Position numbers and translations under genes: made by a program
Origin: a virus
Reading direction: 5' to 3' (one strand)
DNA length: 30,117 nucleotides
Virus record (IMG/VR): IMGVR_UViG_3300022939_000089
Coordinates: 1-30,117 of that record
The notes under the pieces: generated by a model
Database searches by the model: none
Told to the model about the DNA's origin: nothing
Seen by the model: only the letters and a program-made list of their open reading frames with translations
Part shown: positions 8,521 through 26,890 of the stretch, piece by piece
Layout: each line of letters opens with the position of its first letter
How positions within the stretch are numbered: position 1 is the stretch's first letter

Positions 8521-8599
8521 TACGAATCACCTTTCATTACTTACACTACTAATATAAGTCATTTGAGCAAAGAAGTCAAGGGCCTGTGGCTAAAATTTG
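8516..8599 (+). repeat. 84-bp direct repeat, copy 2
   Basis: The partner of 8290-8373. It contains the promoter at 8551-8579, and its right end is the last 10 nt of the phosphate-transporter gene. The part 8540-8583 is also identical to 5757-5800. Confidence 0.85.
8551..8579 (-). promoter_or_regulatory. Sigma-70-type promoter
   Basis: TTGACT (8579-8574), 17-nt spacer, TATATT (8556-8551), driving the 43-aa gene. Identical in sequence to the promoter at 5768-5796. Confidence 0.85.
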
Positions 8600-9075
8600 C
8601 TCAAATATTTAGCAATCTGGCCAACAAACGGCAACAACATGATAGCCATTAGAAGGTTCGCTCCTGTATGTGCCATCGCAATTCGTAGTGTGTCTCCCTT
8701 CGGCATGCCATCAGAAACAAAAATTCCCGCAAGCCAGATGGTTCCTGTTGTTCCGATGTTCGCTCCTAGAACTGCTCCAATCGCTGCCGGAAGCGGCAAG
8801 GCACCAGACGCAACCAACGCAATGATGGCGGTTGTACTCAAGCTTGACGATTGCCACAACAAAGTCATGATGATTCCACCAAAGAACATATACAGTGGAT
8901 TTCCCAAGAAAAACGAAAGATGCTCCATGTTTCCCATGGCCTTCATGCCCCCAGAGAATGTTTTTAATCCGATATAGAATATTACCAGACCTACTAGTGC
9001 CGTGACGGCAGGGTTTCCTAAATCCATTTTCTTTACCTTTTTCCAAAGTTTCTTATTTTGATTCTGATTTTCCAT
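8590..9075 (-). CDS. Single-repeat Na+/phosphate cotransporter-family membrane protein (161 aa)
   Basis: It has the signature of the NptA/YjbB Na/Pi cotransporter family (PF02690): LLWQSSSLSTTAIIALVASG (QSSS motif) and then AAIGAVLGANIGTTGTI. Several membrane segments are visible: AVTALVGLVIFYIGL, FFGGIIMTLLW, AIIALVASGALPL, AIGAVLGANIG and GANLLMAIMLLPFVG. Full-length transporters carry two inverted QSSS repeats; this protein has one, so it might work as a homodimer or modulate a host transporter. An Asn/Lys-rich N-terminus (MENQNQNKKLWKKVKK) precedes the first segment. AAGGA lies upstream. A role in phosphate uptake during infection is inferred. Confidence 0.8.
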   Translation of the reverse strand: MENQNQNKKLWKKVKKMDLGNPAVTALVGLVIFYIGLKTFSGGMKAMGNMEHLSFFLGNPLYMFFGGIIMTLLWQSSSLSTTAIIALVASGALPLPAAIGAVLGANIGTTGTIWLAGIFVSDGMPKGDTLRIAMAHTGANLLMAIMLLPFVGQIAKYLSKF

Positions 9076-18257: not shown

Positions 18258-18286
18258 AATATACTATATGATTCTATTTGTGTCAA
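18258..18286 (-). promoter_or_regulatory. Sigma-70-type promoter
   Basis: TTGACA (18286-18281), 17-nt spacer, TATATT (18263-18258), with GAATC in the spacer. The -35 overlaps the end of the ClpP-like gene. Confidence 0.85.
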
Positions 18287-18951
18287 TAAGTTTCTATAAT
18301 TTTATCAGCAATCCCATGTTTTATTGCTTCTTCTGGTGTCATCCATATGTCAGACTCTGGTAATAAATATTTTCTGATATAATCTTTCTTTTTTCCAGTA
18401 CACTTGACATAATGTTCAACTAATTTCTCTGAAGAGATTTCAAATTGTTTTATTTTCGCATATAATTCATGTTCCTTGCCCTTTGACCCCCAGCTGTATT
18501 GATGCGACATGATGCTTGTGTTCTGTGTTAGGTATCTGTGTCCCTTCTCTCCACTCATCATTAGCAGCACACCACAGGACGCTATAGAGCCCATTCCATA
18601 GGTATAAACTGGTATTTTTGACTGTTTTATTACATCTATAAGATGAAATGCAGATGCAACCTCTCCGCCTGGCGAATTGATATATAGATGAATAATCGGA
18701 GGCCTTTTGGGTGCGGGCATCAAATTATATTCCATAATCATTTTTACTAATGGCATACAATTTTCTTGATTGAACTCCTTATCCATAAAGAGAATACCAT
18801 TTTCTTTCAATACAGTGCCTGGCTGTTTTTCAAATGTCAGGTCTCTTGGCATTGGTTCTGGTGGTGGAGTTTGAGTGATTGTATTTGGAATCAAATCAAT
18901 CTTTTCTTCTTCTTTTTTCTTTTTATTTGGTTTGCTCGTTTTGGCCGCCAT
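18283..18951 (-). CDS. ClpP-like serine protease (222 aa)
   Basis: The N-terminal 45 residues are Lys- and Pro-rich (KPNKKKKEEEKIDLI, TPPPEPMPRD). Then comes the ClpP fold: IHLYINSPGGEVASAF, TYGMGSIASCGVLLMM with the nucleophile Ser in ASC, SIMSHQYSWG with the catalytic His, and PESDIWMTPEEAIKHGIAD with the catalytic Asp. The full Ser-His-Asp triad is present. ClpP needs an AAA+ partner (ClpX/A); none is visible here, so it may pair with the host's or act in phage head or protein turnover. It is the last gene of the membrane operon. Confidence 0.85.
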   Translation of the reverse strand: MAAKTSKPNKKKKEEEKIDLIPNTITQTPPPEPMPRDLTFEKQPGTVLKENGILFMDKEFNQENCMPLVKMIMEYNLMPAPKRPPIIHLYINSPGGEVASAFHLIDVIKQSKIPVYTYGMGSIASCGVLLMMSGEKGHRYLTQNTSIMSHQYSWGSKGKEHELYAKIKQFEISSEKLVEHYVKCTGKKKDYIRKYLLPESDIWMTPEEAIKHGIADKIIETY

Positions 18952-19390
18952 TATCTCTAATCCTATCGCTTAGTTTTTTATCTAAATCTTTTAATTGTGT
19001 ATCAATATGTACATATACTGCATCAACATCACTATCTAATTCATCAATCCAATCTTCATGTTTTGCAAAAGTTGCCTGTAGGTCGCTGATCAAACCATCA
19101 TATATCCGATCAATATATTCACCCAACCTATTATCTTCTGATATTCTCATATCATCAATACTAGTTAAACTTGACAAAATATCTTCTTTCATTTTGTCAA
19201 CTTCTTTTCTCAGCTGCTTCACATCATTAATAAGAGTTACTTCTTTTTCTATTTTACTCTTTGCAGTGAGTTCGGCGACTTGCCCTTCTAGTTGATCTAT
19301 GGTTTGTGCCTGTTGTGCAGTCCACCACACAAAGGCACTTACCTGTAGAACAATAGCAATGACAACGCCAATGCTAAATTTACTGTTCAT
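18923..19390 (-). CDS. Membrane-anchored coiled-coil protein (155 aa)
   Basis: One N-terminal membrane span (FSIGVVIAIVLQVSAFVWW, residues 5-23) is followed by a long coiled coil (IDQLEGQVAELTAKSKIEKE onward) that would lie in the periplasm if the short N-terminus stays inside. The architecture resembles an inner-membrane spanin (N-terminal TM plus periplasmic coiled coil), but there is no partner lipoprotein gene nearby. It overlaps ClpP by 29 nt and starts 1 nt after the SbmA-like stop. Function unproven. Confidence 0.7.
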   Translation of the reverse strand: MNSKFSIGVVIAIVLQVSAFVWWTAQQAQTIDQLEGQVAELTAKSKIEKEVTLINDVKQLRKEVDKMKEDILSSLTSIDDMRISEDNRLGEYIDRIYDGLISDLQATFAKHEDWIDELDSDVDAVYVHIDTQLKDLDKKLSDRIRDNGGQNEQTK

Positions 19391-20362
19391 TTATTTCTCC
19401 TGTATCTGTCTTTCAAATTCTCTTAGTCGTTTGTAGACACTCATTAATTCAATAATGGTAGGCCATGCTTTTAGTAAATACTGCATAGAACCTTCTACTC
19501 TACCAAACGCCCGAATAATTTGTTGCATTACACCCAATGTGACTGCACCAGCAACAATAGCGGGGGCAAGAAACACATAAGCACTCAAGACATTTGCCTG
19601 TAAGTATGCAATTCTACCTATATTGAAGTATAGGTATCTTATATAGGATTTAAAATGAATGCCTCTGACACCTTCAAACAATTCTTCAATAGTTTTAGGC
19701 CTGACTGTCTCATCGTCCTCTGCAATCACCAGAATTTTACGATATGCAGCCTCTTTCTTTTGCAAGTCATATTCAACACCTACAAGTCTCAGCAACCATC
19801 CCAACCCAACGAGGAATAATGTGCCCCCAATCGACCAGACTAATGCACCTGTTACAAGTCCGTATTGCCAATCACCAAAGAAAAAGATGGGAATTCCCAC
19901 ACTCAATCCAAGTAAAATAGGCACAAATTGTATCAATACCATAATGGACTCAATAAAACTAGTACCAAGGCCTTCCATAATTCTACTAAACTTGATAGTA
20001 TCTTCTTGCACACGTTGAGCAGCACCTTCGATAGTTCTAGCCTTATCATAGACAGAATGATACCATTCTACCATTGCGGTTCGCCATCTAAACAGATAAT
20101 GTGCTGTGAAAAACGATATTGCGACTGCAATTGCAACATATATTGCTGCGAGTGTAATAAAGGACGCTAGACTGGCCCAATATTCTCCTATTGTAATGGC
20201 ATTAGGTTCTGCTAATGCCCTTTGGATCATGTCGTAAAACTGTCCAAACCATTCATTAATTTTTACATCAATTTGTACTTGTACCCAAAGTGATGATAAG
20301 ATTATTGCGGAACCAATCCAACTCCATAATAACCACTTTCGCTCTTTAAAAAATCTAAACAT
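19391..20362 (-). CDS. SbmA/BacA-family peptide transporter (323 aa)
   Basis: It follows E. coli SbmA through most of its length: QFYDMIQRAL, HYLFRWRTAMVEWYH, TIEGAAQRVQEDTIKFSRIM, SFIESIMVLIQFVPILL, the middle AEDDETVRPKTIEELFEGVR, YFNIGRIAYLQ, and ELMSVYKRLREFE near the end. SbmA/BacA are dimeric, proton-driven inner-membrane importers of peptides, microcins and bleomycin. The phage protein lacks about 80 N-terminal residues (two spans) of SbmA (406 aa) and has no ABC ATPase domain. AAAGGGAAGTT precedes the ATG. It sits in an operon with ExbB/ExbD-like proteins. Cargo in infection is unknown. Confidence 0.85.
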   Translation of the reverse strand: MFRFFKERKWLLWSWIGSAIILSSLWVQVQIDVKINEWFGQFYDMIQRALAEPNAITIGEYWASLASFITLAAIYVAIAVAISFFTAHYLFRWRTAMVEWYHSVYDKARTIEGAAQRVQEDTIKFSRIMEGLGTSFIESIMVLIQFVPILLGLSVGIPIFFFGDWQYGLVTGALVWSIGGTLFLVGLGWLLRLVGVEYDLQKKEAAYRKILVIAEDDETVRPKTIEELFEGVRGIHFKSYIRYLYFNIGRIAYLQANVLSAYVFLAPAIVAGAVTLGVMQQIIRAFGRVEGSMQYLLKAWPTIIELMSVYKRLREFERQIQEK

Positions 20363-20377
20363 AACTTCCCTTTCATG

Positions 20378-20821
20378 TTATTTTGATGGTCCCTGTGTTC
20401 TATCGGGCATCGTCGCTTCCAATTCCATTCTTAATTCACCACCAGCTCCATTTGGTGGCATCATTTTCCCCCTTATCTTAAACCCAGCCTTTTGTCTTTC
20501 TTCGGCTGCCATTAATTTCTTTAGTGTTTCTCTGTCATATGGGAAAAAATATACTCTACTGCCTCTTGTTTTTTCCCAAACCCATAGATGAATTGTATCA
20601 GAACTCTTCATTTTATAATGAAGCATTTCAAATTCGCCCTGAGGCATTCCCTCTATTGGAGACCCTATATTTTCTTTAATCCAGAGGCCGGATACAGATA
20701 AAAAGAATATTGCAAAGGGCAATACTGTGAGTTTGAGGATAAAATCTACATCTGCAAGATATATTATCACTGCAATGACTAGTGATAGCAAAATTCCAGA
20801 CAAAATAATTGTTGTAATCAT
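20378..20821 (-). CDS. Two-span membrane protein (147 aa)
   Basis: It begins MITTIILSGILLSLVIAVII, with a second span VLPFAIFFLSVSGLWI, then a soluble domain of about 90 residues (FEMLHYKMKSSDTIHLWVWE, GSRVYFFPYDRETLKKLM). The ATG overlaps the ExbD-like stop as ATGA, arguing that the two products work together. No family is recognised. Confidence 0.7.
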   Translation of the reverse strand: MITTIILSGILLSLVIAVIIYLADVDFILKLTVLPFAIFFLSVSGLWIKENIGSPIEGMPQGEFEMLHYKMKSSDTIHLWVWEKTRGSRVYFFPYDRETLKKLMAAEERQKAGFKIRGKMMPPNGAGGELRMELEATMPDRTQGPSK

Positions 20822-21558
20822 GGGCCAGTCCCTTTCCAATTAGTGTCGTCCCAACTGGGATATTCATTTCGCGTATTGCCAGGAAAAGATGTTGGTGGAA
20901 TTGCTGGTGGTAATCTAGTAGATGGAGTTATTTCAACATCTCCACCAGCATTTGCATATTTATAGTATAAAGGTATCTGTATATCAGTTCTAAGGTCGCT
21001 GATTTTACCTTTTTTGTCCATCAAAAAAGTTGCAATGGTGTGTTCTTGCCTAAATGTCAATGAAACTCTACCAGTGTAAATCACTCTATATGGATTGAGT
21101 TTTATAATTTCAACTTGTACTGGTGTTGGATATATTTCACCTTCTTGTATTTCTTTATTTGTGTTGTAATGATGTACATTTACAACATATTCGCCAGGCA
21201 CAAAAGTGTTGATTGATATCGTTTCTATATTTCTAAGAATTTTTGTAGGAATTCCATCAACCATAACGAAATCATTACTGATTCCTAGATCATCTCGTTC
21301 AAGAACCATCCAGTTTGCATCTTTTCTCTTGAAACTGACTATATCATCATCTTTCGGGCCTCTTACCCACAAGTCTATGTCCATTATAGATCTGTCGGGC
21401 CATGTTAGTATTACAAGAAACTCCGATTTTGGGTCTATTTTACCCTTGTCTGCAATTGGATTGATTAGCAAAAATGCAATCAACAATAGACTAACAAAAC
21501 CAACAAGAAGATTGAATAAAAGGTCAACAAAACCTAAATTTGTGCTGTATTTTCTCAT
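20818..21558 (-). CDS. ExbD/TolR-like protein with unusual C-terminal domain (246 aa)
   Basis: The N-terminus has the ExbD/TolR/MotB pattern: NLGFVDLLFNLLVGFVSLLL puts a conserved Asp (FVD) at the start of the single membrane helix, the proton-carrying residue of these motors. The rest is not the usual ExbD fold: TWPDRSIMDIDLWVRGPKDD looks like the start of a DUF2135/YfaP-type beta domain ('..DLDLWV..P'), followed by more beta strands and a Pro-rich tail. It would reach into the periplasm. It overlaps the ExbB-like gene as TGATG. Motor function is inferred. Confidence 0.75.
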   Translation of the reverse strand: MRKYSTNLGFVDLLFNLLVGFVSLLLIAFLLINPIADKGKIDPKSEFLVILTWPDRSIMDIDLWVRGPKDDDIVSFKRKDANWMVLERDDLGISNDFVMVDGIPTKILRNIETISINTFVPGEYVVNVHHYNTNKEIQEGEIYPTPVQVEIIKLNPYRVIYTGRVSLTFRQEHTIATFLMDKKGKISDLRTDIQIPLYYKYANAGGDVEITPSTRLPPAIPPTSFPGNTRNEYPSWDDTNWKGTGP

Positions 21559-22022
21559 CACACATTACTTTCACCATCTAACAACACCAGCTGGAATTTG
21601 AGAAGTATTGAAGATAATAATCCTGTCAAAGATGTTATCAATGCGATCCCCATACCAGAAGCAAGCGTTCCTATTATATTTTTGAGCTCTTCGGGAGAAT
21701 AATCCGTTATATTGCTAAATGTTGTTGTGAGAACAATTAGAAATCCCACAAGAGTCCCTACCATACCAATAGATAATACAGCATCAGAGAAAAACCAAAT
21801 TGGTTCAACTGAACTTTGTGTTACTACACGGTTTTTAAACTGTTTGATATATGATTTATAACCGACAAATAAACTACATGATAATAAAATTGTAAGTATT
21901 AGTATGCTAATTTTTGTGCCGTCTTGCACTAGAAGATAATGTGAAATTCCAATCTGTGTTTCTGCAATTCCAATTAATACGACACAGACTACAATTGTAG
22001 TCCACCATTTCCAAAATACCAT
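21558..22022 (-). CDS. MotA/TolQ/ExbB-family proton-channel protein (154 aa)
   Basis: Three membrane spans: TTIVVCVVLIGIAE, ILILTILLSCSLFVGY and the long VLSIGMVGTLVGFLIVLTTT, followed by GTLASGMGIALITSLTGLLS. The last two blocks are the core MotA/TolQ/ExbB signature ('GllGTv.G.......G...AL.tT..Gl'). ExbB-like pentamers surround two ExbD-like helices and turn proton flow into mechanical work. It is shorter than ExbB (244 aa), lacking most of the cytoplasmic domain. It is first in the operon, divergent from the secreted ClpP-fold gene. Confidence 0.75.
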   Translation of the reverse strand: MVFWKWWTTIVVCVVLIGIAETQIGISHYLLVQDGTKISILILTILLSCSLFVGYKSYIKQFKNRVVTQSSVEPIWFFSDAVLSIGMVGTLVGFLIVLTTTFSNITDYSPEELKNIIGTLASGMGIALITSLTGLLSSILLKFQLVLLDGESNV

Positions 22023-22100: not shown

Positions 22101-22128
22101 GCTATACTTCTTTTTGAAAGGAAAACAA

Positions 22129-22923
22129 ATGAGAAATTTCATCTTTCTCATGGTCATGATGATGGGTTTTGTTTATCCATCGATGTCATATGCACACACA
22201 ATAAATAACAATTATCATTTTAAATATGTGGAAGAAACTCCTTGGGGTCCAATGTTAGAGTTCAGAGGAAATTTTGTAAAGGGACTCAAAGACGATTTCA
22301 TGCGAATGTTAACTATATATCCAAAAACTAAAATTATTTCTATGTCATCGCCCGGAGGCCTTCTTGATGAAGGATATGAGGTTGGACGCCTCTTGTCAAA
22401 CTACAGAGTATCCGTATGGGTTCCTAGAGATCAGGCATGTATTTCAGCATGTGCATTGGCGTTCATTGGTGGAGATAACTATATGGTAAGTGGACTCCTA
22501 GCATTTCACGCACCTTGGCTACCAGCATATGATGGTGGAATGAAGATAATGGATATCTATTCTCAGGGACAGAATACAGGAGCAGTCCAATCATACTGGT
22601 TTGCTTTGAATGGATTTAGAGCTCAATTGTATATGACAATTACACAATATACAAATAGAGACACATTTCTAATGTTTCTAAACACCAGAGATTTAAATTA
22701 TTTTCTAATGCATCCAGAAAGGACATATTCAGAGTATTTGGAGTTTAAAGATATGCCAAAAACAGTCCTTCAAGGAAATGGAGATCTATTAGAAGCAGTT
22801 ATGGTGAGAAAGAGACTTGAAGTTTTAAGAAAGGCGGGAGAATTTAACTTCGATGGAAGTAATTCTAAACTCCCCTCTTATAGAGAGTTACAAAGGCTCC
22901 ATCGGCCAAAGAAAGAGCAGTAA
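22129..22923 (+). CDS. Secreted ClpP/crotonase-fold protein, COG3904-like (264 aa)
   Basis: A signal peptide is clear (MRNFIFLMVMMMGFVYPSMS, cleavage after SYA). Then SMSSPGGLLDEGYEVGRLLS matches the 'l.SPGG.v.eG..la..i' strand, VPRDQACISACALAFIGGDN matches the 'C.SAC......G..R' block with the Ser of SAC in the nucleophile position, and FHAPW matches the His region. This is the periplasmic ClpP-like group COG3904. Protease activity is uncertain. AAAGG 7 nt upstream selects ATG 22129. The 3' end overlaps a convergent gene by 59 nt. Confidence 0.75.
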   Translation: MRNFIFLMVMMMGFVYPSMSYAHTINNNYHFKYVEETPWGPMLEFRGNFVKGLKDDFMRMLTIYPKTKIISMSSPGGLLDEGYEVGRLLSNYRVSVWVPRDQACISACALAFIGGDNYMVSGLLAFHAPWLPAYDGGMKIMDIYSQGQNTGAVQSYWFALNGFRAQLYMTITQYTNRDTFLMFLNTRDLNYFLMHPERTYSEYLEFKDMPKTVLQGNGDLLEAVMVRKRLEVLRKAGEFNFDGSNSKLPSYRELQRLHRPKKEQ

Positions 22924-24980: not shown

Positions 24981-25715
24981 CTATTCCTCTTTTTCTAGTT
25001 TTTCAGTATATCTTATATAATACTTTATATCGTGGTCGTAAATTCCATCAAAAGGAACTTTCTTTTTAAGGGCCATAATTCTTCCTCTCCATTGATCTTT
25101 CATTCTCTGCCACAAACTCATTTTTCTAATATTTCCATGATAGTTGATATATTTCAGTTCTCCATGATGTCTATAGCATAAAAATGATGGTGGAACACTA
25201 GGAACAATATCATTGTTGTTGACATATCTAACATGTTCACAGGAGATAGATTTTACATATTTATTCCATCCAACTCTAGGAGATCCAAATGTACAGAGAT
25301 AATCAACGTCTTGTATCAATCCTGCTGCGATAGTAGCCATTGCGCCACCCAAAGAATGTCCTGTAAAATATAATTGTTTTTTATGACGCATCTGATCGAT
25401 AGTAATTTGTACTCTATCTAAAACTTTTTGAACTTCACCATTAAAACCTTTATGTACTCTGCCGTTTTTTTCTTTCTGGGGCCATGCTCTCAAATCTGCT
25501 TTTAGGTCATTCCATTCTTTGCCCATTTCTGTTCCCCGAAAACAAATAATTAGATAATTTTGATTCCAAACAGCATAACATTGAGCTCCATCCCAATCAA
25601 TATATTTTACTCTTGGAAACCCAAGTTTTTGATATCTTTCTTCAGCAGCCTTTGGTGGTAGGTACGCAATTGCAGACATTTTGGCAAGTAAAGCATCTAA
25701 TTTTTTTCTTTCCAT
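24981..25715 (-). CDS. Class 3 lipase-family alpha/beta hydrolase (244 aa)
   Basis: It has the class 3 (PF01764) lipase pattern: NYLIICFRGTEMGKEWNDLK (the 'vaFRGT.....W..Dl' block), VHKGFNGEVQKVL, YFTGHSLGGAMATIAAGLI with the nucleophile Ser in GHSLGG, CTFGSPRVGW, and YVNNNDIVPSVPP with the catalytic Asp. The last His is probably in YDHDIKYYI. There is no signal peptide, so it would act inside the cell unless freed by lysis. Its start overlaps the GMP reductase stop (TAATG). The substrate, perhaps host phospholipid or storage ester, is unknown. Confidence 0.85.
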   Translation of the reverse strand: MERKKLDALLAKMSAIAYLPPKAAEERYQKLGFPRVKYIDWDGAQCYAVWNQNYLIICFRGTEMGKEWNDLKADLRAWPQKEKNGRVHKGFNGEVQKVLDRVQITIDQMRHKKQLYFTGHSLGGAMATIAAGLIQDVDYLCTFGSPRVGWNKYVKSISCEHVRYVNNNDIVPSVPPSFLCYRHHGELKYINYHGNIRKMSLWQRMKDQWRGRIMALKKKVPFDGIYDHDIKYYIRYTEKLEKEE

Positions 25716-26890
25716 TAATTTTTCCCTTCGTAGATTCGGTTATGAGTATCTTGACACATAACAAAGGTTGTACACTTACTTAGTCTTTTTAGCTTTGACG
25801 CTCCAACATAAGTACAAGTGCTCCTAATACCACCCAAAATATTTTGAACAGTCATTTCTACGGGGCCCTGATATGGAACCATTACTTCTCTACCTTCTGA
25901 TGAACGATAGTTCTTTAATCCACCAGAATGCTTTCTATTTGCAGTCTCTGAACTCATTCCATAAAAATGCACAAATTGTTTGGAATAAATCGATTTCTTG
26001 GTTGGTGTAGTAAAATCATTCTTAGTGGCATAAACCAATACCTCATCTGTCTCATACCATTTTTCAATGATTTCACCACCCCCTTCATTATGGCCGGCAA
26101 ACATTCCGCCTAACATAACAAAATCTGCGCCACCAGCAAATGCTTTGGCTATGTCGCCAGGAGTTGTGCAACCACCATCAGCAATAATATGCCCACCAAG
26201 CCCATGAGCAGCATCCGCACACTCAATGACTGCGGATAATTGAGGATAACCAACACCAGTTTGTATACGGGTCGTACAAACTGAACCAGGCCCGATCCCA
26301 ACTTTGACAATATCTGCTCCATTTAGTATTAACTCCTGTGTTTGATCTGCTGTAACTACATTACCGGCAATAATTACTAATTCTGGAAATGTGCTTCTCA
26401 GTTCTGATATGAAATTGACAAATCTCTCTGTGTATCCATTTGCCACATCCACGCAGACATATGATATTTTATTATCTGTCATTTCATAAACTTTGCGAAA
26501 CTTATTCAAATCTTCTTCCACAATGCCCATAGAATATGCTGTATGTGTAGGACGCCATGGATAGTTTGGATTATCAAAGAAATCCACCAACTCTGGAACT
26601 TTATAATTTTTCTTTAAACAAGTAAACAATCCTAATTTACCCAAAACATCTGCCATCTTGAATGTTCCAACACCATCCATATTAGCAGCCATGATAGGAA
26701 TGCCTTCATAATGATAATCTTTATGTGCTGGATATCCATGTGGAAGTTCAGACGAAGTATATGTTGGTCTGTAGTTTCTAAATATGAACCTTCGTGTGAG
26801 ATCAACTTCTTTACGACTTGTCAAAGCACTTCTTTTTGGTCGAATAAGGACACTACTGTAATCAAGTTTTAACTCTGGTTCAATTCTCAT
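25715..26890 (-). CDS. guaC: GMP reductase
   Basis: GMP reductase converts GMP to IMP and ammonia with NADPH, letting guanine nucleotides re-enter adenine synthesis. Signatures: [12 protein letters not shown] and [11 protein letters not shown] (N-terminal), [14 protein letters not shown] with the catalytic Cys, [48 protein letters not shown], and FYGMSS, then [23 protein letters not shown] (quoted in parts). These separate it from IMP dehydrogenase, and there are no CBS domains. At 391 aa it is longer than E. coli GuaC (347), with extra residues around 35-60. It is coupled to its neighbours by TAATG on both sides. Confidence 0.92.

Follow-up and report, generated by a model that had tools for sequence, protein, structure and literature searches.

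A putative stator-family gene trio with a YfaP-like periplasmic subunit in phages and Alphaproteobacteria

Introduction

Members of the stator superfamily supply the power for flagella and gliding, for outer-membrane transport and for defence against phages. What would a phage do with a member of this superfamily that carries an unfamiliar periplasmic domain? The question is raised by a gene, here called gene B, in a 30,117-nucleotide stretch of viral DNA (IMG/VR record IMGVR_UViG_3300022939_000089), which we refer to as the window. The window is phage DNA, with a tail-fibre protein, tRNAs and an endolysin-type hydrolase, and an identical B gene is found on a 203.8-kb contig that also encodes a terminase and, at E=1.6e-139, a T4-like gp23 capsid protein. 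Here we describe gene B, the two genes that accompany it, and the readings of their function that the evidence allows.

Results

A membrane anchor with a conserved aspartate

Gene B (20818..21558, minus strand) takes the position of the ExbD subunit and is made up of a predicted transmembrane helix, a beta-sandwich and a tail. A sequence-only reading had given its coordinates but named no strand. Stops are frequent on the plus strand of this region, and on the minus strand the gene is a single intact reading frame, 20818-21561, of 247 amino acids when counted from the GTG at 21561. An in-frame ATG at 21558 gives a protein of 246 residues and is the likelier start, since it overlaps the stop codon of the adjoining gene A as TGATG. 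Gene B is no chance reading frame, since phages and bacteria together provide hundreds of loci with relatives at ~26-61% identity.

In a structure model of B (pLDDT 79.7), a membrane helix spans residues 6-32 and residues 47-190 form a beta-sandwich of 9-10 strands, while the Pro-rich tail (residues 214-246) is modelled with low confidence. The sequence-only reading had described a membrane helix with a conserved 'FVD' aspartate, and this description held. The residue is Asp12 in the 246-residue numbering, it lies inside the predicted helix, and its alignment column contains Asp in 69 of 74 relatives. All five proteins without Asp at the aligned position are chromosomal; four of them belong to a group with a start of the 'FDPxxVML' type, in which an Asp stands three residues earlier. 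The transmembrane segment of B can be aligned by hhalign with the TPFIDV segment of ExbD, but only weakly. Judged from these features of its sequence, B is most readily taken for an inner-membrane protein with a single helix, a conserved Asp and an ExbD-like anchor.

A periplasmic head related to YfaP

The ~200 residues that follow the helix had been proposed to be neither an ExbD/TolR nor a MotB/OmpA domain, and our searches bore this out. The C-terminal part of B gave no ExbD, TolR, MotB or OmpA match in Pfam, NCBIfam or PHROGs. For the ExbD/TolR periplasmic domain (PF02472) there was no Pfam match, and profile comparison returned an hhalign score of 14.3 with a probability of 0.3; for the OmpA-like domain there were 0 Pfam matches among 31 members, and none by PDB fold search. 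A Foldseek search of the B model against the PDB returned nothing of any kind at E<1e-3. The top rows of that search were long spike proteins with a TM score of ~0.1 and were discarded as noise. Searching BFVD gave five matches below 1e-3, whose names, one of them tellurium-resistance-like, were uninformative.

The sole family lead from a single-sequence search was DUF2135 (PF09906), with E=0.13 and 12.8 bits, short of the Pfam gathering score of 22 bits. When profiles were compared, the periplasmic profile of B matched a YfaP/DUF2135 profile, built from 29 DUF2135-domain stretches plus E. coli YfaP, over 73 columns with an hhalign probability of 96.7% and a score of 63.2. The best of 40 column shuffles scored 24.0, and the control ExbD profile, consisting of an E. 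coli ExbD seed and ORFs from sampled genomes, scored 14.3. The alignment is colinear across the elements W...DxDLxVxxPxG, LxxD, E and GxYxVxVxxY, and the earlier suggestion that the DIDLWVRGP segment of B resembles DUF2135/YfaP-type beta folds is upheld by these scores. YfaP is the DUF2135 protein of the yfaP-yfaQ-yfaS-yfaT-yfaA cluster of E. coli; unlike B, it has neither a stator-type helix anchor nor a MotA-like partner. Homology of the B periplasmic domain to the wider YfaP-type domain is thus well supported by profile comparison, with formal membership of DUF2135 not met. Within the domain a D-x-D, an R-D-D, E112 and E172 are invariant in 74/74 sequences, save that one D is N once. Such conservation suggests a metal-binding or structural site, which remains an inference.

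A four-helix partner

Gene A (21558..22022, minus strand) is predicted to encode a 154-residue, four-helix channel or stator protein of the MotA/TolQ/ExbB family with almost no cytoplasmic domain. The window's own copy matches PF01618 at E=5e-4 and 20.2 bits, under the curated cut-off of 22.9, and 25 of 26 relatives match the same family at E<=1, the best at 2e-7. The gene A family profile matches structures of MotA, ZorA and TolQ in the PDB. Four transmembrane segments are indicated by hydropathy, and the AlphaFold model (pLDDT 85.5) shows long helices, for which the top-ranked PDB folds are ZorA, TolQ and ExbB, none of them at E<1e-3. Polar positions of the pore helices are conserved: the pore-helix motif G-T/N has G in 75/75 and T/N in 73/75 relatives, a T/S in the fourth transmembrane segment is present in 75/75, and the corresponding residues in the window are T90 and T130/S131. 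Membership of A in the MotA/TolQ/ExbB family is well supported by the profiles of its relatives and by these pore residues, with pentamer formation and ion conduction only inferred. It is this partner that bears out the suggestion that B is a motor stator subunit. The A proteins of phages are mostly 137-170 residues long and those of chromosomes 173-262. In the examples that were checked, the difference sits in the loop that joins helices 2 and 3, which is the place of the cytoplasmic domain in MotA and ZorA.

A putative third subunit and the distribution of the trio

Downstream of B in nearly all relatives lies gene C (20378..20821, minus strand), which encodes a 147-residue membrane protein of no known family, with two helices and a predicted periplasmic C-terminal domain. 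The list of reading frames starts it at 20839, and an ATG at 20821 overlaps the stop codon of B as ATGA. The relatives of C have two hydrophobic helices and then a C-terminal domain of ~100-150 residues, with a 'PRxYxLPY'-like stretch in most. Most of them carry positive charge between the helices, which suggests that the C-terminal domain is periplasmic. For gene C, NCBIfam and PADLOC returned no match and Pfam none that was convincing, and PHROGs contained nothing useful for A, B or C. With TGATG at the A/B junction and ATGA at the B/C junction, the overlapping stop and start codons make the three genes look translationally coupled.

A tblastn search found B in 27 records of Rhizobium/Sinorhizobium phages, which span several unrelated genome types and include 16-3 (p040) and Pootjesviridae; among the annotations read, these genes are hypothetical or carry a bare p-number. 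Isolated phages with the trio include 16-3, AP-16-3, RL38J1 and RHph_N34. A profile scan of IMG/VR found 37 B loci, and a scan with a profile made from marine relatives found 308 contigs that encode B. The three genes occur together in all but one locus of the first phage set (in the exception, C was not found), and in some phage loci they are separated by small ORFs or homing endonuclease genes. Both partners were present in 76 of the 80 marine T4-like phage loci fetched (A in 78/80, C in 78/80). Among 385 sampled genomes of Alphaproteobacteria, 65 had a B match, which was strong and nearly full-length in 55 (~1/7), and A and C adjoin B in 33/33 bacterial loci fetched as well as in an Azospirillum chromid locus. 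One genome has two tandem B genes on a single contig (G369, C7:39110-40193) and two further B matches. Distances for A, B and C correlate at 0.83-0.87 with a permutation maximum of 0.15, as is expected for any linked, co-inherited genes. The B tree contains two deep groups, one comprising the temperate phages of the 16-3 type with two Azospirillum-type bacterial copies, the other comprising marine and large lytic phages and the remaining chromosomal copies. In the second group phage and chromosomal sequences occupy clades of their own, which means that these phages did not acquire their copies recently from a host.

The resemblance of A and B to ZorA-ZorB of Zorya, a four-helix protein beside a one-helix protein, raises the possibility that the trio serves exclusion or defence. 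The stator would then sense or block the entry of competing phages at the envelope, on behalf of (pro)phages as superinfection exclusion and on behalf of bacteria as defence. This would fit the nearest matches of A, which are ZorA in PADLOC and NCBIfam as well as among PDB folds, the patchy occurrence on chromosomes (55/385 genomes), and the presence of the trio in temperate phages and prophages. However, A lacks the long ZorA tail, B lacks the peptidoglycan-binding domain of ZorB, and there is neither a ZorC/D/E partner nor a nuclease effector gene. PADLOC had no match for B or C, no Zorya genes were found among the recurrent neighbours, which leaves the criteria for Zorya unmet, and the chromosomal neighbours are not defence genes. 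We regard a Zorya-like role as unlikely. A decoy directed against Zorya was also considered and was dropped, as stand-alone chromosomal copies exist.

Those stand-alone copies would agree with a housekeeping motor that serves Alphaproteobacteria in the manner of Ton or Tol, acting in outer-membrane transport or stabilisation, which phages would carry to keep the envelope of the infected cell working. Stator homology with ExbBD/TolQR and a three-gene logic as in ExbB-ExbD-TonB point the same way. Against this, standard ExbD/TolR genes are also present in 30/31 genomes sampled for ExbD, C lacks the C-terminal domain of TonB or TolA and seems not long enough to extend as far as the outer membrane, and no TonB-receptor neighbour was found. 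Such a motor remains possible, though we would not expect it.

Neighbouring genes

Several genes of the window that are not part of the trio are recorded here. A short protein of 161 residues at 8590-9075 (minus strand) has a Na+/phosphate cotransporter domain (PF02690, E=4e-16), and an ORF resembling it is located upstream of gene A in one relative locus (L176). A lipase-like gene at 24981-25715 (minus strand; PHROG 21992, E=2.6e-25) adjoins a gene at 25715-26890 (minus strand) that appears IMP dehydrogenase-like when its translation is read by eye. The gene at 18923-19390 (minus strand) encodes a membrane-anchored coiled-coil protein that weakly resembles Rz spanins (PHROG 7584, E=8e-4); over its first 92 bases the gene shares 89% identity with Methylophilales phage Melnitz.

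Divergent from A in the window is a gene for an exported ClpP-fold protein (22114..22923, plus strand), with a signal-peptide-like N-terminus and a PHROG protease match at 5e-6; by eye, its motifs CISAC, a Ser flanked by two Cys, and FHAP resemble a Ser/His active site. In 18 of 43 non-redundant marine loci A is preceded by an exported ClpP-fold gene, which in most cases shares its strand and lies within a few bases of it. In 16-3-type phages, every locus has a gene for an exported HtrA/trypsin-like protease immediately upstream of A (e.g. L003:6247-7146). That exported proteases of two unrelated folds occupy one operon slot is the strongest hint about the role of the trio.

On the other side, 15 nt after gene C, the window encodes an inner-membrane peptide transporter of the SbmA/BacA family (19391..20362, minus strand; PF05992, E=1.4e-139). 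SbmA/BacA follows C at a distance of <=400 nt in 16/38 non-redundant marine loci, and it is a probable functional partner of the trio in marine phages. Only 4 of 50,697 phage records had a relative of this transporter, yet the gene recurs beside the marine trio. A ClpP protease (18283..18951, minus strand; PF00574, E=4.5e-34) also recurs on this side of the marine cassette, following C in 14 of 33 non-redundant marine loci. For the chromosomal copies, clustering and Pfam analysis of the neighbourhoods revealed no conserved neighbour family in the loci read, and neither a protease nor SbmA was among the clusters found. The protease and SbmA neighbours are also missing from more than half of the marine phage copies, so a partnership with them is optional at most.

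The neighbourhood also bears on whether the motor aids lysis or disruption of the outer membrane, weakening the envelope late in infection and replacing or helping spanins. In the window an endolysin-type hydrolase and a spanin-like coiled-coil protein are encoded only a few genes away, and in two relative loci (L218, L232) an ORF that looks by eye like an i-spanin or an M15 peptidase precedes A. Yet the contexts are mostly replication or mid-genome genes (gyrase, recombination, DNA polymerase, PhoH), the proton motive force needed by the motor would be lost on holin triggering, and stand-alone copies on chromosomes would be harmful. We consider a lysis function quite improbable.

Discussion

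We think it probable that A, B and C form one inner-membrane complex of the MotAB/ExbBD/TolQR/ZorAB stator superfamily, although neither complex formation nor ion flow has been shown. The stator part of this reading is well supported, resting as it does on homology and conservation. By analogy, A would assemble as a pentamer around two B helices (A5B2), and ions, probably protons, would pass Asp12 of B and the conserved Thr/Ser of A and thereby drive a rotation or stroke of B. Since the phage A proteins have hardly any cytoplasmic domain, the work may be delivered on the periplasmic side, where the YfaP/DUF2135-type head of B would deliver it. C would be a third membrane subunit, in the slot that TonB or TolA fills in known systems.

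Such a complex resembles ExbB-ExbD and TolQ-TolR, in which a multi-helix channel protein stands beside a one-helix protein with a membrane Asp and the work is directed toward the periplasm. It differs from them in the YfaP/DUF2135-like head of B, in the loss of most of the cytoplasmic domain from phage A, and in C, which is neither TonB nor TolA. With MotA-MotB it shares the superfamily and the four transmembrane helices of A, but phage A lacks the cytoplasmic domain that contacts the rotor, and B lacks the OmpA-like domain.

What the complex does for the phage is less certain, and the earlier idea of a new sensor or cargo-handling type is unproven. A role in infection, with the motor powering the handling of envelope proteins or peptides, is inferred without substrate or phenotype data, and taken alone we hold it only tentatively, as a reading that may well prove wrong. 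As an example, the motor might present substrates to the exported protease, and SbmA might import the products. The fullest version, in which a new ion-driven stator class of A, YfaP-headed B and C runs envelope-protein turnover together with the exported protease, SbmA and ClpP in phages of Alphaproteobacteria, is speculative and, as a whole, doubtful. Under that version host envelope proteins would be recycled, or receptors stripped, during infection.

There is precedent for stator subunits that gain new domains or partners, both in vWA motor-coupled transducers (PMC12204202) and in generic ion transporters with added domains (PMC12505986), as far as the available passages of these papers go; those passages contain no phage-encoded stators, YfaP domains or A-B-C unit. 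No description of the unit was found in the literature on phage ExbB/ExbD, DUF2135, YfaP, phage 16-3 or rhizobiophage stators, and an earlier description elsewhere is not excluded. A widespread, phage-carried member of the stator superfamily with its own periplasmic head and a third subunit thus seems to be undescribed so far. Because the trio is carried by the isolated phages named above, it is directly testable. It offers a lead from the phage side on energised manipulation of the envelope, and it gives the YfaP/DUF2135-type domain a new physical context outside the yfa cluster of E. coli.
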